Origin: Acidobacteriota bacterium
Lineage (GTDB): Bacteria; Actinomycetota; Acidimicrobiia; Acidimicrobiales; RAAP-2
DNA: 52,690 nucleotides
Assembly (NCBI GenBank): GCA_028873575.1
Contig: JAGWHY010000009.1
Span: 1-52,690, forward strand
Direction of reading: 5' to 3'
Both the position numbers and the translations under genes were made by a program. The notes beneath the pieces are model-generated. The model was not told the DNA's origin, did no database searches, and saw nothing but the letters and a program-made list of their open reading frames with translations. Of the stretch, positions 3,070 to 28,029 are shown piece by piece. How positions within the stretch are numbered: position 1 is the first letter of the stretch; each line of letters starts with the position of its first letter.

Positions 3070-3261
3070 CACCGAAGACACGAATTCGCTTGGAGACATA
3101 ACAATTCTACCGGCCCGTTGGTTTTCGACATTGGTATTCGCTCGTTATCCACGCTGGCATGGCTCTCCACCTGACTCCCTCGCCTTGGTGGTCACAATTT
3201 CCAAGAGTTAATGACCAGAATTGCGATCACTCCTTGAAATCCCCCTCTTAGTCAGAGCCGC

Positions 3262-4530
3262 CTATTTCCTGCGTGGAACTTTTCTCACTGGTTCGCTCGT
3301 CTGAGTGTCGCCCTCGGGACTGGCCAACTGACGCTCCAGCGCGGTGAAAGCCGCGATGATCTCTGGTGCTTCAAAGGCACGATTCCGTCGACCAACGGTG
3401 ACCTGCTTGAGGATGCCCGCGTCGACGAGACGCTGAATCGCTTCATTCGTCTGGATGAAACTGCGACCCACCATCTCTGCGGCGCTATTGACGGTCACGA
3501 CGGGTGCGCCGATGAGTACGGAGAGGAGTAGATCGGCCGCGGAACGAGTTCGAACTCGGCCCAACCTTTCTCGCCACGACGCTTCGATGGAACGCGCGTG
3601 CTGCTCAAAAGTCGTCGCGTCATCGACGGCACGCTTGCACGCAGTCGCGAAACGTCCAATCCACGTATTGATGCCGGCAGACGCTTGTTTCGAAGCAGCT
3701 GGTCCACGGTAGCGAGTGGCGGTTAATCCGTCGACGTAGTCTTGCGCCCAGGTCGCCAGGATAAGTGAAACGGGTGGGAGTACGCGAGGTGCCAAACCTC
3801 GGCGTCGCAGGATCAGGTGCACCAACGCACGACCGGTTCTGCCGTTGCCGTCCACGAATGGATGAATCGTCTCAAACTGTGCGTGCGCAATGCCCGCTTG
3901 AGCGACCGCCGGAAGTGAATCTTCGTTGGCAAAGGCAACGAGATCTGACATCAGATCTTCGACGTATTCAGTTGGTGGCGGGACGAAGGCGGCCGAGCAC
4001 GGAGAGTACGCACCTCCACCTATCCAGTTCTGCTGTTCACGAAACCGTCCTCCGTACTCTGCAAACCTCGTGCCGAGCAGAAGTCGACGATGGATTTCGA
4101 GAAGTGTCTCTACGGTGACGGGGTCTCCGGGCCCGACGGCGCCAACGCCGTAGACCATGGCGTCAATGTTTCTAAGTACCTCGACGGCCGTGACGTCAGA
4201 CGGTTCATCACCCAGCACTTGCGCGACTTCGGCTCGGAGTAGCCTTCGGGCGCCAATTTCGAGGCCCTCGATTCGAGAAGAGGCGACGGACTCAGCTCGC
4301 AAGAGGATTCGAGCGAGTGCCTCGGTATCGACGAGACTTACTGCTTCAACGTTCAGTCGTGCGATGGCTACCTCGGCGTCGGCGATATCGGCCGCGACCT
4401 CACCATCCAACGTGAAGTTCCGTCCGACGAGCATGTCGGGGACGTACGCTTCGTACTCGCACCCACGGTTATCCTTGCGCGACGGACCGTCGTGAGTACT
4501 TAGCCAGCGGCGACGAATAGCCCTAGACAT
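3262..4530 (-). CDS. fic: Fic family protein (class II, N-terminal inhibitory motif, C-terminal winged helix)
   Basis: 422 aa; ATG 4530 follows AAGGAG at good spacing. The Fic core motif HPFVDGNGRTGR is complete at residues 223-234, with the catalytic His223 and the phosphate-binding GNGR, so AMP transfer from ATP to target hydroxyls is expected. SSRIEG at 84-89 matches the [ST]xxxE[GN] inhibitory helix on the N-terminal side; its Glu blocks productive ATP binding in class II Fic proteins. About residues 320-400 look like a winged helix (ADLLLSVLIGAPVVTVNSAAEM, then RLVDAGILKQVTVGRRNRAF), so it may bind the near-palindrome in its own promoter. It is the only gene of element 2. Targets cannot be told from sequence. 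Confidence 0.9.
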   Translation of the reverse strand: MSRAIRRRWLSTHDGPSRKDNRGCEYEAYVPDMLVGRNFTLDGEVAADIADAEVAIARLNVEAVSLVDTEALARILLRAESVASSRIEGLEIGARRLLRAEVAQVLGDEPSDVTAVEVLRNIDAMVYGVGAVGPGDPVTVETLLEIHRRLLLGTRFAEYGGRFREQQNWIGGGAYSPCSAAFVPPPTEYVEDLMSDLVAFANEDSLPAVAQAGIAHAQFETIHPFVDGNGRTGRALVHLILRRRGLAPRVLPPVSLILATWAQDYVDGLTATRYRGPAASKQASAGINTWIGRFATACKRAVDDATTFEQHARSIEASWRERLGRVRTRSAADLLLSVLIGAPVVTVNSAAEMVGRSFIQTNEAIQRLVDAGILKQVTVGRRNRAFEAPEIIAAFTALERQLASPEGDTQTSEPVRKVPRRK

Positions 4531-22205: not shown

Positions 22206-23069
22206 TTAGCGGTAACCCACGAAGACGTCGTCGGCTAACCCGCTCAGCCCGAGCGGGTTAGCCGCGCGGACGAACCACTCAAAGCGCATCTCCTCGCGGA
22301 AGCGCTCGCGCCCCATTTTCATCCAGAACGAATCGCCGATCTGGCTCGCGTGCGCCGCCAACGCGTCGAACTTCGCGTCGGCCACCGCGCGCACGTCGAC
22401 CGCGACGTCGATCTGATCGTCGGGCGTGCCCATGTTGATCTCGTCGCCGTCTTCGTTGGCCGGCTCGAACTCAGGTTCGGGTTCGCGCCCCGCGGCCAGG
22501 TCGGCCTCACGCCTCAGGCGGTCCTCCTCGGCCCAACGCTCGCGCCACGTCGCCATGACCGAGTCCGGCACGGCATTGAAGTAGAGCGTCGGCTCGTAGT
22601 CGAGCAGGGCGATCGCGGCCAACGTGACGCGGTGGGCCTGGATGTGATCGGGGTGACCGTAGAAACCGTAGGCGTTGTAGGTCATGATGACCTGCGGTCG
22701 CTCTTCGCGCAAGACCTCGGCCAGTTTGGTCGCGGCGTCTTCAATCGGCGTCGCCCAGAAGGAATCGGGGTCGTCGTTCTGGGGCCAGCCCATCATTCCC
22801 GAGTCGCGGTACCCCAGTCGCACGAGGCGTGAAATGCCGAGCACCTCGACCGCGCGATCGAGTTCGACGGCGCGAATCTTCGCGACCTGGTCACCGTCGT
22901 GGTGATCGGCGTCGGGCTTGGCGCCGTCGAGTGCGTCACCACACTCCCCGTTAGTGCAGGTCACCAGGACCGTACGCACGCCTTCGTCGGCGAGTCGGCG
23001 AAAGAGTCCGCCGGTCGAGCTCGCCTCGTCGTCGGGGTGCGCGTGCACCGCGAGAAACGTCAGTCCCAT
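22206..23069 (-). CDS. mca: Mycothiol S-conjugate amidase (LmbE family)
   Basis: 287 aa; ATG 23069 follows GGAGG. The LmbE zinc motif HAHPDDE is at residues 9-15, and the second His-containing motif GHPDHIQAHR near 137. YRDSGMMGWPQND is typical of Mca and MshB. The enzyme cleaves mycothiol conjugates of electrophiles, releasing the mercapturate for export and the glucosaminyl-inositol for reuse. It overlaps mshB by 10 nt, so they are translated as a unit. The coding end contains a strong hairpin (22233-22263) that also faces the converging ahcY transcript. Confidence 0.9.
   Translation of the reverse strand: MGLTFLAVHAHPDDEASSTGGLFRRLADEGVRTVLVTCTNGECGDALDGAKPDADHHDGDQVAKIRAVELDRAVEVLGISRLVRLGYRDSGMMGWPQNDDPDSFWATPIEDAATKLAEVLREERPQVIMTYNAYGFYGHPDHIQAHRVTLAAIALLDYEPTLYFNAVPDSVMATWRERWAEEDRLRREADLAAGREPEPEFEPANEDGDEINMGTPDDQIDVAVDVRAVADAKFDALAAHASQIGDSFWMKMGRERFREEMRFEWFVRAANPLGLSGLADDVFVGYR
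22233..22263. terminator. Terminator-like hairpin inside the 3' coding end of mca
   Basis: GGCTAACCCGCTC (22233-22245) and its exact reverse complement (22251-22263) enclose a 5-nt loop. It starts 36 bp after the ahcY stop. It probably ends the plus-strand ahcY transcript, while on the other strand it encodes the residues NPLGLSGLAD of Mca. No clear T-tail follows. Confidence 0.65.
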
Positions 23070-23887
23070 GTCAATCCTCCAAAGAGATCGGTCTCGTCCG
23101 CGCCCTCGCCGACCGGCGATCGAGACCAGGCGCGCTGAAAGTACTCCGTACCAAAGAGCAGACTAAAGAGATCCGCGCGCATCTCAACCAGATCGCCGTT
23201 GTCGACCTGGGAGGCGTGGGTCGCCATCGCGCGCTGCTTCACGGCAGCGAGAGCGCGCACGTCGAGTGTCGCGTTCACGAGTGATCGAGGGACGTGGGTC
23301 CCCGCCTCGACCACCCAGGCCGGCAAATAGACGCCGAGTGCGCGCGCGCCCTCCACGAAATCAGCCAAGACCTCGCGGGGCACGACGGGGTAGTAGAGGC
23401 GCTCGACACTCGCCGACAGTTCGACCGCGCGACGCGTGACCACGTTGGCAGCCACGTGATCGGGGTGGCCGTAAAACCCGTTTTCGTCGTAGGTCACCAC
23501 GACGCGAGCCCCGACCTCGTCGAACACCGCGGCGAGCACGCGCGCGCACGACGACACGTCGGCGTTGACGAACGCGCGGGGGTCCTCGTTCTGGGGCCAA
23601 CCCGCCATGCCGGAATCGAGGTACCCCAGGTTGATCGTGCGAGAAAAGCCGAGCAAGCGCGCGGCCCGCACGAGTTCACCCGCGCGGGTCGCGGCCGTCG
23701 TGAGATCGTCGTGGTCCGGCGCCTCCCCGGGTCGAGCCTCCTGATCGAGACCGAGTTGACCGAGCGTGCACGTCACCAGCGTCACCCGCGCGCCCGCGTC
23801 GGCGTAGTGACGGGCGGCCCCGGCACCAAAGAGTGACTCGTCGTCGGGGTGCGCGTGCACGAAGACGAGAGAATTAGTTGGCGTCAC
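23060..23887 (-). CDS. mshB: MshB-like GlcNAc-Ins deacetylase (LmbE family)
   Basis: 275 aa from GTG 23887. HAHPDDESLFGAGA holds two zinc ligands; YGHPDHVAAN supplies the third region, and YLDSGMAGWPQNEDP is the signature shared with Mca. MshB removes the acetyl group from GlcNAc-inositol in mycothiol synthesis. It is first of the pair, with mca overlapping its end, coupling thiol synthesis and conjugate breakdown. The assignment as MshB rather than a second Mca rests on order and on similarity around the N-terminal motif and is fairly, not fully, certain. Confidence 0.82.
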   Translation of the reverse strand: MTPTNSLVFVHAHPDDESLFGAGAARHYADAGARVTLVTCTLGQLGLDQEARPGEAPDHDDLTTAATRAGELVRAARLLGFSRTINLGYLDSGMAGWPQNEDPRAFVNADVSSCARVLAAVFDEVGARVVVTYDENGFYGHPDHVAANVVTRRAVELSASVERLYYPVVPREVLADFVEGARALGVYLPAWVVEAGTHVPRSLVNATLDVRALAAVKQRAMATHASQVDNGDLVEMRADLFSLLFGTEYFQRAWSRSPVGEGADETDLFGGLTWD

Positions 23888-23896
23888 GTTGGCAGA

Positions 23897-25480
23897 CTAC
23901 GAGGTCGCGAGTTGGATAACGCGCACGATCAACAACAAACCGGCACTCGCCAGGTACACGCCGTTCGCGATGAGCAGGACTCGGCGCGCGCGCGACGAGG
24001 TCGGCGTTTCGAGCAGGGCCGCGCGCGGCATGCGCCAATCCAAACGATCGACGTCGTAGGTAGCGCGCGGCGCGGCGCGGCGCAGTCCCATCGGTAGCCC
24101 CACCACGAGCGCCGCGCCCGCGCCCGCGGCTAACCCGCCGGCGAGTCGCACGACGTTAATGCTGGGAAAGAGCGTCGACACCATTAAGACGACGGACAAG
24201 ACCACCAGCACCGTCACGATGACGACCGCGACCACATTGAGCCACTTCGCGTTCACCCAGGGGCCGAGCGCCGCCCGATCGTTTGCGAGCAATAAGACGA
24301 AGACGCTCGTCGTGGGCAACATGATCCCGGACAGCGCCTGCACCGCCAAGGTAATAAGACCCAGTGGCGCCCCCGGCAGCAGCGTCACGATCCCCGCCAC
24401 GCTCAACAACCCGGCGAAGACGCCGTAGAAACCCTTGGCCTCACGAAACGGTACGTTGAGTCCCTTGTTAAATCGGCTGGATAGATCGCCGACGGCGTAG
24501 CTACTCGCCAGCGTCACCACCGCCGCGCCGATAACCGACGCGTTGAGCAGCAAGATGGCGAAGAAGTCTCCTGTCCCGTGACCGACGTAGCGACGTAGTC
24601 CTCGGGCGACGTCGAGCGACGACGTGAAGGCGTTGGTACCGCCGTGGCCCGCGAGACCCGCCGCCGTGATGGCGACTAAAAAGGTCGCGACGACCACCAC
24701 GATGACCGATCCAATGACGGTGTCCACGCGTTCGTAGTTCAGCCAACGGGGTGTGATGCGCTTGTCCACAATATTGCTCTCTTGAAAGAAGAGCTGCCAT
24801 GGCGCGATGGTTGTTCCCACAATCGAAATAATTAAGAGCACCCCCGCTGACGTCGTGCCGCCGCGTACGCCAGGGTGAATGAGACCGTGCGCGACCGCGC
24901 TCGTCGACACGTGCGCACGTAACACGAGGGGTATCACGAAGAGATTGACGGCTACGAAGAGCATCATGAAGCGCTCCCAACGGCGAAACGAACCCGTCGC
25001 GGTTACCGCGAACAGGGCAATGACCGCGACCGGTACCGAAAGATAGGGACTGACGCCGAAGTAGCGCATGGACAACGACACGCCGATGAATTCGGTGATG
25101 ATGATGAGAAAGTTCAAGACGAGGATTGACGAGATCGCGAAGTTGCCCCAGCGTCGACCGATGCGCTCACGAATCAGCCGCCCGTGGCCGATGCCAGTGA
25201 CCACCCCGAGCCGGGCGACCATCTCTTGGTTCACCACCAACACGGGAATCAGGAGGGGCAGGGTCCACAGCAGCGTGTAGCCAAAGTTTTGACCCGCCTG
25301 CGCGTACGTCGACACGCCGCCCGCGTCGTTGTCGCCAATCATGACGATGAGACCTGGACCAATAATCGCGAGGAGCGTCAACAACCGCGCGCGTAGACCC
25401 CGGCGGGCCCCTTCGTCGTGGCCCGCGATGGTCCCGAAGGCGCCCGAAATCTGGCCGTCGCGGGTTGCCTTGTTGCTCAT
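23897..25480 (-). CDS. Nramp-family divalent metal transporter with altered metal site
   Basis: 527 aa, about 11-12 membrane spans; ATG 25480 follows a full AAGGAGG. The first half-repeat motif, usually DPGN, reads D52-A-G-G55. The TM6 motif, usually MPH, reads A226-P-W228. In manganese/iron Nramps the Asn and Met coordinate the transition metal, so losing both suggests a different ion. Nramp relatives that carry Mg2+ (NRMT) also have changed sites. A Mg2+-sensor-like MgtE_N/CBS protein is encoded directly upstream, which supports a Mg2+ role by inference. The 173-bp gap before it is rich in hairpins. Residues after about 460 form a hydrophilic insert and a final span. Confidence 0.88.
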   Translation of the reverse strand: MSNKATRDGQISGAFGTIAGHDEGARRGLRARLLTLLAIIGPGLIVMIGDNDAGGVSTYAQAGQNFGYTLLWTLPLLIPVLVVNQEMVARLGVVTGIGHGRLIRERIGRRWGNFAISSILVLNFLIIITEFIGVSLSMRYFGVSPYLSVPVAVIALFAVTATGSFRRWERFMMLFVAVNLFVIPLVLRAHVSTSAVAHGLIHPGVRGGTTSAGVLLIISIVGTTIAPWQLFFQESNIVDKRITPRWLNYERVDTVIGSVIVVVVATFLVAITAAGLAGHGGTNAFTSSLDVARGLRRYVGHGTGDFFAILLLNASVIGAAVVTLASSYAVGDLSSRFNKGLNVPFREAKGFYGVFAGLLSVAGIVTLLPGAPLGLITLAVQALSGIMLPTTSVFVLLLANDRAALGPWVNAKWLNVVAVVIVTVLVVLSVVLMVSTLFPSINVVRLAGGLAAGAGAALVVGLPMGLRRAAPRATYDVDRLDWRMPRAALLETPTSSRARRVLLIANGVYLASAGLLLIVRVIQLATS

Positions 25481-25653
25481 TTCACCTCCTTAGGTCGTGT
25501 CGTGGTCGTAGGTTGGTACGACCTCGTCGCGGCTAGGAGGTGGTGTCCTCCCGGTGCGTACGGGGTCGCGTCGACGCGCGTGGCGTCACGTAGCTGGTAC
25601 TAGGGGGTTTCAGACAGACCCCCTTAGAACGGGACCGAGGAGGAGCGGGCGCG
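25481..25653 (-). promoter_or_regulatory. Hairpin-rich leader upstream of the Nramp gene
   Basis: On the minus strand: a 6-bp GC stem (25602-25607 with 25619-25624), a GGAGG/CCTCC hairpin (25536-25540 with 25547-25551), and a perfect 7-bp hairpin GGTCGTA/TACGACC with loop CCAACC (25504-25523) just before the ribosome site. A second ACGACCT closer to the ribosome site could pair with the same AGGTCGT arm, so alternative folds are possible. It does not match the M-box or yybP-ykoY consensus as I know them. Confidence 0.45.
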
Positions 25654-26913
25654 TCACTCTTCCACCGCGCCTACGCCAAACTCAGCGCGCCAGCCCTGAG
25701 GCAGGAGCTCCTCGAGAAGGTCATCGACCGTGACGACGCCCACCATCGTGCCGTGCTCGTCGTCGAGTACCGGCAGCACCGTCAAGTTGAAGTCGCTCAT
25801 CTTGCGCGCGACGCGCGGCACGTCCCAGTGCGCGTGCACGTGGGCAAGTTGGGTACGCGCGATCGAAAGCGCCGGCTCGCTGGAACGTGCGCGCACCAAG
25901 GGCGCGATCGCCGCCGATCCAATGGGCTGGCCGCTCTCGTTCGTGAGAAAGACCATCTGCAGTGACTCCGCCGGGACACTCGAGGTTCGAATCGCCTCGA
26001 GCGCGTCGGCCACGGTCGCCGTCGCGGGAATCGACAAGAAGTCCGGACTCATGAGTCCCCCGGCGGTGTCGGCGTTGTACGACAGAAGATGGCGCACTTT
26101 GACCTGCTGCTCGGGTGCCAGACGATCGAGGATTGGTCGACGGCGTTCCTGGTCAATCTCGGTGAGTAGGTCGGCCGCGTTGTCCGGCTCCATCCGTGAC
26201 AACAGCCGGGCCGCCTCGTCGTCGTTACGAGCTTCGAGAAACTCCAGCTGGTGTGACGTGTCGAGTTCTTCGAAGACGTCGGCCTCGAGCTCGCGGTCCA
26301 GTCCGACCGCCTCGATAATCTCACTGCCCTCGTCGTGACTGGCCTCTTCGACGAGGTCGGCGATTTGGGCGGGGTGCAAACGCGAGAGTTTTCGATACGG
26401 AATACGCAGTCGCGCCGACGGGACGTGACTCACGAAGGGCTCGATGGAGGCGAAGTCCACCATGGTGTCGACCTTGACGTGCTGGCCCATCTGCGCGCCG
26501 AGCACCCTGCGCAGGAAGCGACGCCGACTCGGGTCAACGCCCACGACCTCCCAGGTCTTATCCACGCAGGCGATTTCGATTTCGTTGGCGATAATCAGAC
26601 GGCCGCGCACCAGGTTGATGAGGTGTCGCGCCAAAAGGTCCTCGGCGAGCAGGAGCTCACCCGGTCGGCGCTCGAACTTTCGCAAGTCGACCCGTCGCCC
26701 TTCGAAGGTCATCTTGCCCTTGTCGATGCCCCCAATCTTGCGAATGGGCACGAAGAGGTCGCGACCCTCGATGCGAATGACCGCGCCGACGATGGGGGGA
26801 TGCGGGTCGTCGCCGAGTCGCGCGACCAAGTCCTGGACGCGTCCAATCCGGTCACCGTCGGCATCGAAGATGGGACGACGCAGGAACGTAGAGAGGTGAA
26901 AAATTTCGGTCAT
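25654..26913 (-). CDS. Soluble PRC-barrel/MgtE_N/CBS protein (Mg2+ sensor-like)
   Basis: 419 aa from ATG 26913 (a GTG at 26931 is possible). Order: PRC-barrel-like region (about 5-75, RPIFDADGDRIGRVQDL), a second short barrel-like stretch, an MgtE N-terminal superhelical domain (about 175-280, with repeats such as FEELDTSHQLEFL and LSRMEPDNAADLL), then a CBS pair (about 285-405, MSPDFLSIPATATVADAL, then DDLLEELLP). No membrane domain follows, so this is the magnesium-sensing half of MgtE without its channel. The Nramp gene comes next on the same strand. The pair may have swapped MgtE's pore for an Nramp transporter. Confidence 0.82.
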   Translation of the reverse strand: MTEIFHLSTFLRRPIFDADGDRIGRVQDLVARLGDDPHPPIVGAVIRIEGRDLFVPIRKIGGIDKGKMTFEGRRVDLRKFERRPGELLLAEDLLARHLINLVRGRLIIANEIEIACVDKTWEVVGVDPSRRRFLRRVLGAQMGQHVKVDTMVDFASIEPFVSHVPSARLRIPYRKLSRLHPAQIADLVEEASHDEGSEIIEAVGLDRELEADVFEELDTSHQLEFLEARNDDEAARLLSRMEPDNAADLLTEIDQERRRPILDRLAPEQQVKVRHLLSYNADTAGGLMSPDFLSIPATATVADALEAIRTSSVPAESLQMVFLTNESGQPIGSAAIAPLVRARSSEPALSIARTQLAHVHAHWDVPRVARKMSDFNLTVLPVLDDEHGTMVGVVTVDDLLEELLPQGWRAEFGVGAVEE

Positions 26914-27006
26914 AGCAGGCCCGAAAGCCACCCCAGGCTACTCCGTCATTCACGAGCCGGACCAGGTCGATTTCGTGACGTCCGCGTGAACGACGCGACG
27001 ACACCG

Positions 27007-28029
27007 CTAGCCCAGACGAAAGCGCTGCAGTACCTCAAGTACGAAATCGACGTCGTCGTCCGTGACTTGCGCGTGGGTGACGAAGCGGGCGCGACGTGGC
27101 GCGATCGTGCCGCCGACCACGCCACGCTCACCCAGTTGCGCCACCAGGTCGCGCGCGCGCGGATGGTCGAAGGCGACGATATTGGTGCGACAACTGGTGG
27201 CGTCGTAGTTCGATTCAGGAAACGCGGTGGCGAAACCCTCCGCCAAGCGTCGCGCGCGCGCGTGGTCATCCGCCAAGCGGTCGATCATCGTCTCGAGGGC
27301 CACCAGGCCGGCCGCGGCTAAGAACCCGGCCTGACGCATCGCCCCACCCAGACGCTTACGTTCGACCCGTGCGCGCGCCATCATCGACGCCGATCCCGCG
27401 AGAAGTGAGCCCACGGGCGCGCAGAGCCCCTTCGAGAGACACGACATGACGGTGGTCGCCGGCGCGCAGTACGCCGCCGCGCTGGTGCCCGTCGCGACGA
27501 CGGCGTTGAAGAGACGCGCGCCGTCGAGGTGAATCGGCAACTCACCCACCGCGTGACGCAACGCGACGAGATCGTCGAGATCAAGGGGCGTCCCGCCCGA
27601 CGGCATGTGGGTGTTCTCGACGCTCACGAGACCCACGTGCGGCTGGTGATCGATCTCCGCGTCAATGACGTCGAGAATCTCGTTGAGCCGCATGGCGCCC
27701 GACGTGTCGTCGAGCGTCGCGAACTGCACGGACGAGTTACGCGCCGACGCCCCCATTTCGAAGCTCACCACGTGCTGGTGGCGCCCGGCGATGATCACGT
27801 CGCCGGGCGCGGTCAACACGCGCACCGCGATCTGATTACCCATGACGCCCGAGGGAACGAAGACCGCCGCCTCCTTGCCCACGAACGCCGCGAAGGTACG
27901 CTCGAGCTCGTTGATCGTGGGGTCCTCACCCGATCCGTCGTCGCCCACCTGCGCGCGCGCCATCGCCTCGCGCATGGCGGGCGTGGGTTGGGTCACGGTG
28001 TCACTTCGTAGGTCGACGCGTCGGCTCAT
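27007..28029 (-). CDS. ltaE: Low-specificity L-threonine aldolase
   Basis: 340 aa; ATG 28029 lies 7 nt after TAGCCT, so the mRNA is probably leaderless. The PLP-dependent fold-type I features are present: RSDTVTQPTPAM at the N-terminus, ENTHMPSGGTPL, the LDGARLFNA Asp that contacts the PLP ring nitrogen, and the PLP lysine Lys200 in SCLSKGL. It splits threonine or allo-threonine to glycine and acetaldehyde. It is divergent from the thioesterase gene across only 35 bp. The MgtE-like gene lies 93 bp downstream on the same strand. Confidence 0.93.
   Translation of the reverse strand: MSRRVDLRSDTVTQPTPAMREAMARAQVGDDGSGEDPTINELERTFAAFVGKEAAVFVPSGVMGNQIAVRVLTAPGDVIIAGRHQHVVSFEMGASARNSSVQFATLDDTSGAMRLNEILDVIDAEIDHQPHVGLVSVENTHMPSGGTPLDLDDLVALRHAVGELPIHLDGARLFNAVVATGTSAAAYCAPATTVMSCLSKGLCAPVGSLLAGSASMMARARVERKRLGGAMRQAGFLAAAGLVALETMIDRLADDHARARRLAEGFATAFPESNYDATSCRTNIVAFDHPRARDLVAQLGERGVVGGTIAPRRARFVTHAQVTDDDVDFVLEVLQRFRLG

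Follow-up and report, generated by a model that had tools for sequence, protein, structure and literature searches.

Among the described systems closest to the locus reported here, the Nramp-related Mg2+ transporter (NRMT, also written NrmT) and its partner gene have been in print since 2014, when Shin et al. showed that an MgtE-N-like gene adjoins most nrmT genes, proposed feedback control, and found Ca_c0685 and Ca_c3329 to be functional without a partner gene (PMC4072509). EleNRMT moves both Mn2+ and Mg2+, and the residues of its ion site and surroundings are named in the portion of PMC8806188 available to us; the available portion of PMC9606685 mentions neither MgtE nor CBS. With regard to RNA leaders, acidic codons of Salmonella mgtQ that destabilize the ribosome open the transporter start (PMC8092293, excerpt), and at MgtL ribosomes drop off when Mg2+ is low, at an EPDP motif near the start (PMC11282234, excerpt). 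The mycobacterial M-box has upstream open reading frames (uORFs) and a translational platform behind it and, as far as this source extends, Mg2+ leaders with uORFs are thus known in Actinobacteria (PMC12810186, excerpt). In this report, we describe a sensor-NRMT pair and its leader in a stretch of 52,690 nucleotides (nt; hereafter the window), which is contig JAGWHY010000009.1 of assembly GCA_028873575.1, deposited as Acidobacteriota bacterium and placed by GTDB in the Acidimicrobiales (RAAP-2). The pairing itself is a new member of the published system, and the early idea that the sensor acts on the Nramp had likewise appeared there. The new part is the leader, in which a conserved open reading frame (ORF) with an unusual start has a stop that overlaps an anti-Shine-Dalgarno (anti-SD) stretch, in the very gap that holds an M-box in some relatives; no report of a leader ORF ahead of an NRMT was found in the open-licence literature.

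Our data suggest that the locus is probably an Mg2+ module made up of an NRMT importer, a detached sensor with likely feedback on it, and a leader that gates translation. We also put forward, more tentatively, the possibility that the leader ORF, with a CUG start and the beginning KPPST, is a ribosome-based Mg2+ sensor that ends on the anti-SD, stands in for the M-box and opens the NRMT start, independently of the enterobacterial mgtL and mgtQ. The three main features, all read on the minus strand in the order sensor gene (26913 to 25654), 173-bp gap, NRMT gene (25480 to 23897), are as follows:

25654 to 26913, minus strand: gene for a soluble PRC/MgtE_N/CBS-CBS protein of 419 amino acids, a detached MgtE-type sensor by its domains, fold and retained acidic residues.
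25481 to 25653, minus strand: intergenic leader of the transporter gene, 173 nt, the gap between the two ORFs; predicted to fold and matching no Rfam family.
23897 to 25480, minus strand: gene for the NRMT, 527 amino acids, ATG start with Shine-Dalgarno (SD) stretch AAGGAGGTGAA; assigned by PF01566, the EleNRMT match and the ion-site residues.

The transporter ORF matches PF01566 at 8e-68, and its best PDB match by sequence is EleNRMT (7qia, 3.2e-64; next Nramp, 8.4e-23), which also ranks first when a model of the protein (predicted local distance difference test, pLDDT, 73.7; built on 17 sequences) is searched with Foldseek; by sequence and fold matches alike, it is nearer to EleNRMT than to MntH. 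As the preliminary description had read from the letters, DAGG stands for DPGN and APW for MPH: the first transmembrane helix (TM1) carries DNDAGG and TM6 carries GTTIAPW. Aligned with EleNRMT, the residues D52, G55, T223, A226, W228, E130 and Q381 are those of the NRMT ion site, with the Asp retained (D52), Asn replaced by Gly (G55), Ala by Thr (T223) and Met by Ala (A226); both histidines of helix 6 are replaced as well (W228 and Q233; Trp and Asn in EleNRMT). As with most NRMT members, an MgtE-N-like gene is adjacent. Compared with EleNRMT, the clade of the window has a longer C-terminus, which extends past the Pfam domain (window residues 440-527) with a predicted TM12, a loop and TM13; the EleNRMT PDB chain (438 residues) aligns only up to window residue 435. 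The loop has the consensus WRMPPLALL-RP-WS, with WRMP at 482-485 in the window and YRTS in its place in one relative (L034). The N-in rule of the Nramp fold places this loop in the cytosol, and it is possibly a docking place for the sensor.

The sensor ORF, counted from its ATG, spans exactly the coordinates first assigned to it, and the early reading as a soluble PRC/MgtE_N/CBS protein without a channel holds. Pfam finds MgtE_N (1.5e-20) and two stretches of CBS (1.7e-14), together with an N-terminal PRC match (4.2e-4) whose 20.7 bits lie slightly below the cut-off of 21.2, and finds neither the MgtE channel domain PF01769 nor any membrane domain in the protein. Its nearest solved structures by sequence are MgtE cytosolic domains (8gpv, 1.4e-25; 2yvy, 1.8e-24), and the fold match of its model (pLDDT 85) is likewise the MgtE cytosolic domain. 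In Thermus MgtE, the Mg2+ sites are Mg4 (D91/D247), Mg6 (D95), Mg7 (E59) and Mg5 (D226/D250), according to the portion of PMC5882242 consulted. In an alignment of the window with 34 of 71 full-length sensors (n=35), the Mg4 acids correspond to D244 and D398, the Mg6 acid to D248 and the Mg7 acid to D212, all invariant in 35/35, whereas Mg5 is half retained (D226 to N376, D250 to E401). Thermus positions 255, 258 and 259, which we take to be the plug-helix acids, are Q406, R409 and A410. The sensor therefore shares with the cytosolic domain of Thermus thermophilus MgtE (2yvy) the N domain, the CBS pair with its Mg2+-bridging acids and the Mg4, Mg6 and Mg7 sites, but it differs in having no channel, Q/R/A at the plug positions, N for D226 and an added PRC domain. 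Because the acids are kept and the plug positions are changed, the switch between N domain and CBS pair looks intact and the part that would plug a channel looks lost.

The gap between the two genes had been described as a hairpin-rich leader with possible control at the RNA level. It lies 3' of the sensor gene and directly 5' of the Nramp gene and, together with 15 nt of the latter (25466-25653), folds better than 196/200 dinucleotide shuffles (z -2.73). The idea of control at this level is supported, in a form other than that expected, by a conserved leader ORF with alternative helices that belongs to no Rfam family. Its two parts are:

25619 to 25625, minus strand: SD-like stretch AAGGGGG of the upstream ORF, invariant in 29 aligned leaders.
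25533 to 25613, minus strand: upstream ORF with a CTG start, (M)KPPSTSYVTPRASTRPRTHREDTTS, 26 codons and the stop TAG, recognized as a conserved block across relatives.

All 32 close relatives with a readable gap (NRMT identity of about 65% or more), whose leaders were picked by position and independently of the motif, carry this ORF, in the layout of an SD-like stretch, about 5 nt, and CTG AAA CCC CCN AGT, usually followed by ACC. Outside this set, L108 has ATG followed by AAG CCC CCA AGT ACC at equal spacing, and eight further loci were found by the string CTGAAACC[CT]CC, giving 40 loci plus the window; across the leaders the ORF has 17-28 codons. When 29 of the 32 trimmed leaders were aligned (alignment A2; the near-duplicates L079, L080 and L106 were omitted), mean identity was 63% and all 25 invariant columns fell within the block of the ORF start. 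The SD-like stretch varies elsewhere, to AAGGAGG in L117, to GGGGT in the omitted L079, which thereby differs from L076 inside the hairpin P1 described below, and to GGGGA in L126. Between the window and the 32 close leaders, codons 2-5 show synonymous changes only.

A degenerate pattern for the block was found in 94/172 genomes of the family and 88/99 of the genus, and a backward control pattern in three. It occurs once per genome, except in G255 (two contigs). Among the matches listed, an NRMT follows 99-427 nt downstream, in the same orientation, at 90/95 family sites (85 in the genus); this placement used the matches from the genus together with those from any genome that has a site. For five sites, no NRMT match among those used lies downstream: those of G251 and G298 and the second site of G255 look like contig breaks, the NRMT match of G292 lies outside those used, and the fifth, in G189, is on a contig other than that of the listed NRMT; the GTG start that this single case would have supplied was dropped. 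Before NRMTs the start is ATG in G257, G313 and G314, and TTG in G293, whose NRMT is 92% identical to that of the window; the leader offers a CUG start that is conserved and has natural variants with ATG and TTG. The SD is GGAGG in 13 family genomes, again before NRMT. Since the pattern demands NTG, AAR and CCN, it is itself no coding test. Of 70 ORFs (41 from gaps and 29 from the pattern), 61 are distinct; codon 4 uses all CCN among them (CCT 28, CCA 12, CCG 12, CCC 9), and 45/61 have 24 or 25 codons.

Our analysis of pairing in the leader involves five further elements:

25603 to 25623, minus strand: possible hairpin P1, GGGGG-loop-CCCCC, whose CCCCC forms two proline codons; paired in 29/29 aligned leaders.
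25564 to 25569, minus strand: region A, GCGACC, within the upstream ORF, which pairs with region B in a long-range helix seen by RNAalifold with covariation.
25535 to 25544, minus strand: anti-SD ACCACCTCCT, overlapping the end of the upstream ORF, from folding and pair analysis.
25504 to 25523, minus strand: hairpin H2, GGTCGTA-CCAACC-TACGACC, whose 5' arm at 25518-25523 is region B, from folding and pair analysis.
25484 to 25490, minus strand: SD AGGAGGT of the transporter gene, from sequence.

RNAalifold on the 29 leaders returned P1 and the long-range helix between A (columns 76-81) and B (columns 135-140). The A:B helix has 90.1% standard pairs, with five of its six pairs changed on both sides; one of them is A-U in 17 leaders and G-C in 10. 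Its competitor H2, in which B pairs with a region C, is 86.2% paired, and anti-SD:SD 82.1%. Each set of named pairs, the helix P2 described below among them, beats as a whole 500/500 shuffles and all slid versions on both paired cells and covariation score; related sequences inflate such scores. Covariation across relatives, foreseen as a check of the leader, was found for the two mutually exclusive helices, which the ORF overlaps.

We then asked by folding how a ribosome on the ORF would affect the transporter SD, masking its footprint in 33 leaders that retained 15 nt ahead of the ORF. The SD is unpaired at a mean of 0.28, and in 30/33 leaders at least 0.8 of its pairing falls within -6 to +20 of the ORF stop. 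A mask at the stop raised SD access by more than 0.1 in 27/33 leaders (mean 0.57), masks 15-45 nt earlier gave a gain in 3-4/33, and masks 15 and 25 nt later, which cover the anti-SD, gave one in 29 and 26 of the 33. In the window, access rose from 0.15 to 0.59 with a ribosome at the stop. Sequence comparison and folding thus place a short ORF, with its own SD and start, before a hidden ribosome-binding site.

Other leaders of the lineage contain a second uORF-like block, in which an SD and a few nt precede CTG, or once GTG, and then xAD or xAE, with or without an M-box; it was seen at L036, L037, L040, L043, L044, L049, L054 and 13 loci between L111 and L153. The class takes in 14/35 named leaders without KPPST and some M-box leaders.

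In this start-xAD class a mask at the stop helps 3/20 leaders, indicating that the effect at KPPST leaders is no mere by-product of masking. An extension of the gate to the start-xAD block was dropped, as there is no anti-SD at the stop.

Several results weigh against a translated ORF that works as a gate. With 30 nt kept before the ORF, the window shows no gain in SD access (0.15 to 0.16), presumably because pairing then involves some other stretch upstream. The small helix P2, which follows the ORF start, is 68.2% paired. CUG is rare as a start codon. Codons 7-23 have no third-position excess (979, 1188 and 912 differences by codon position), so that conservation seems confined to the first five or six residues. 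In the 29-leader alignment, P1 shows no compensatory pair (one G-U), and although L117 pairs GGAGG with CCTCC, only four of the 13 family GGAGG sites have CCTCC, the other nine breaking the middle pair of P1. For these reasons, P1 is not counted as established, and that it locks the SD of the ORF itself is left as a mere possibility; its G-rich strand seems more readily understood as an SD than as part of a stem.

The same region can be read in another way, namely as an ordinary NRMT operon in which the 30-nt conserved block is an untranslated terminator of the sensor gene or a promoter or operator of the transporter. The GGGGG/CCCCC inverted repeat right after the sensor stop, the conservation of sequence on either side of it and the lack of protein conservation in codons 7-23 would all suit this explanation; no T-run follows the repeat, however, and the loop and flanks are invariant in the 29 leaders while the remainder has diverged. 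In the family, moreover, the repeat is often unpaired and replaced by GGAGG, the better SD, and CTG, ATG and TTG share one place a few nt after it. The purely synonymous changes in codons 2-5 and the meeting of the ORF stop with the anti-SD also speak against it. We consider this explanation doubtful, and the upstream ORF is probably translated.

Sequence comparison gives the NRMT ion site, the linkage of the two genes, the ORF start, the two alternative helices and the place of the anti-SD; we infer Mg2+ import, feedback from sensor to transporter, translation of the ORF and a gate set by Mg2+, which could be joined in the following model. The NRMT, the only Nramp found in its own genome, would import Mg2+, and the detached MgtE-type sensor would most likely give cytosolic feedback on it, possibly via the added C-terminal part (TM12, WRMP loop and TM13). 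The transporter SD would be held by the anti-SD at the stop codon of the upstream ORF, and a ribosome completing the ORF would sit on the anti-SD and free the NRMT start region. A ribosome that stops or drops off early would leave region A free to pair with B, and this helix, inside the ORF, would compete with H2 before the transporter start. The Mg2+ signal may act through ribosome pausing or drop-off at the early proline codons. The low-Mg2+ state could be either that of the completed ORF or that of the early stop.

In layout, the KPPST leader reads as a translational gate resembling that of Salmonella mgtQ. With mgtQ in the mgtC-mgtB gap and with MgtL, as the cited excerpts describe them, it has in common a short ORF that lies in a long intergenic stretch just ahead of an Mg2+ transporter gene, alternative stem-loops with which the ORF overlaps, and a hidden ribosome-binding site. 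In contrast to mgtQ, which has 8 codons, the KPPST ORF mostly has 24-25, starts with CUG and has prolines at codons 3 and 4; it has no early Asp or Glu codons and was therefore not filed as a member of mgtQ. The mycobacterial M-box system (PMC12810186, excerpt) is similar in being an actinobacterial Mg2+ leader with a uORF, an anti-SD and an SD, and in some relatives of the window an M-box occurs along with another kind of uORF-like block; the window and the KPPST loci differ from it in having no M-box and an NRMT as the downstream gene.

The distribution of the pair bears on the ion transported. A survey of co-occurrence, suggested at the outset, confirmed a linkage that was published in 2014. 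Named genomes were scanned over the best 80 of 499 relatives, all metagenome-assembled genomes and mostly labelled Acidimicrobiaceae, Acidimicrobiales, Actinomycetes or uncultured actinobacterium, with a few Acidobacteria, Thermoleophilia and others. The sensor is present at 76 of these 80 loci, upstream and on the same strand in 75 of the 76 (about 2.2 kb away in L113 and L141) and downstream in L129; at the remaining four (L081, L102, L105 and L114) the contig runs out 108-517 bp upstream of the NRMT match. Across the order, a sensor lies within 3 kb of an Nramp in 51/148 genomes, in four gene orders: mostly sensor before Nramp, and in a few cases Nramp before sensor, divergent or convergent. 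These counts took in sensor matches at 4.4e-20 or better plus a single weaker MgtE-type match (G058:C27), joined split sensor matches in G018, G026, G058 and G131, and left out weaker short CBS-type stretches, pieces of counted matches and five short Nramp pieces. No natural fusion of sensor and NRMT was seen among the Nramp and sensor matches in the order, in which no dedicated search was made; an open frame of 1196 codons at G008 was taken for chance, with the NRMT on the other strand.

An MgtE channel occurs in 1/51 genomes with the pair and in 67/97 without it (Fisher p 5e-17, kinship ignored), and CorA in 12/51 and 55/97, respectively. Where the paired Nramp shares at least 45% identity with that of the window, 33/40 genomes have neither; 30/97 pair-less genomes also have no MgtE. 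Both families were scored only above the family cut-off, which excluded a weak PF01769 match in G125 (which has the pair) and a weak CorA match in G093. A lineage in which the pair occurs in four gene orders and meets MgtE once in 148 genomes is a good test ground for what the pairing does. M-boxes were found in 8/148 genomes, seven of them by coordinates in the sensor-NRMT gap (121-140 bits; gathering score 44) and one before MgtE, in a placement run with stricter filters, and the seven tie the clade to Mg2+. The NRMT ion site, the M-boxes in this gap and the near-exclusion with MgtE support the early suggestion of an Mg2+ importer.

As an alternative, the transporter could carry Mn2+, alone or along with Mg2+, and the MgtE-like protein would then be an accessory that responds to Mn2+. 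The A. capsulatum NrmT, which has an MgtE-like partner, fully rescued a Mn2+ defect, rescued a Mg2+ defect only at low millimolar Mg2+, and gained no further Mg2+ rescue from the co-expressed partner gene (PMC4072509); the transport of Mn2+ by EleNRMT points the same way. The genome of the window (95 contigs totalling 1.80 Mb; completeness 96.6%) has one PF01566 and one MgtE_N match and no CorA or MgtE channel match, which argues for Mg2+ as the substrate, in a search that did not take in MgtA-type ATPases and CorC; the order and genus counts are uncorrected for relatedness. The gap M-boxes and the near-exclusion with MgtE also speak against Mn2+, and we regard this alternative as unlikely. 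Together with the published NrmT/NRMT systems (PMC4072509; PMC8806188, excerpt), the locus has the ion-site residues, the fold, an adjacent gene for an MgtE cytosolic domain and, in some relatives, an M-box; compared with published NRMT loci, the genus of the window differs in having a leader ORF in the gap, and possibly also in the PRC domain of the sensor.

The remaining explanation, that the leader is a riboswitch that binds a ligand (an Mg2+ aptamer of a new kind or what is left of an M-box) and that the ORF is incidental, would fit the position that the M-box takes in relatives and the covariation of the alternative helices, but it is quite improbable, as the window leader gives no M-box (RF00380) match in Rfam at E up to 10, a lineage M-box model matches 5/80 named loci and misses the window and all 40 KPPST loci, and the invariant leader columns are those of the ORF start. 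At gathering score, Rfam finds two tRNAs only in the whole window and leaves the leader unmatched; at E up to 10, positions 25300-27100 match a microRNA family, a Pseudomonas sRNA and a snoRNA, and at E up to 3 six relatives with the second conserved block give two matches, all of which were taken for chance. Once the conserved block could be read as an ORF start, a new aptamer became less likely. With a metal riboswitch in relatives and a leader ORF in the genus, both in the same gap, the tentative reading of the KPPST ORF as a ribosome-based sensor raises the question of whether ribosomes can replace the Mg2+ sensing of an RNA aptamer.

Distant PRC/MgtE_N/CBS proteins that lie away from any Nramp adjoin DUF1003 genes (5/5 small neighbouring ORFs scanned, at L188, L189, L191, L194 and L198, in a survey in which ten ORFs were scanned from fifteen stretches), a pattern that hints at several partners for the detached sensor. 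One genome with a DUF1003-adjoining sensor (G028) also has an NRMT pair elsewhere, and in G007 and G055 about 1 kb separates a distant sensor from an MgtE channel match. Many of the pair-less genomes among the 148 have ORFs with two PF01769 stretches, which we take to resemble SLC41 in layout. In the window, the pair is adjoined by the ORFs 23060-23887 and 27007-28029, both on the minus strand, which look like genes for a PIG-L family deacetylase and a threonine aldolase. At L061, a group II intron D1-D4-4 match (3216-3350, plus strand; 58.3 bits) follows the NRMT gene near the contig end.

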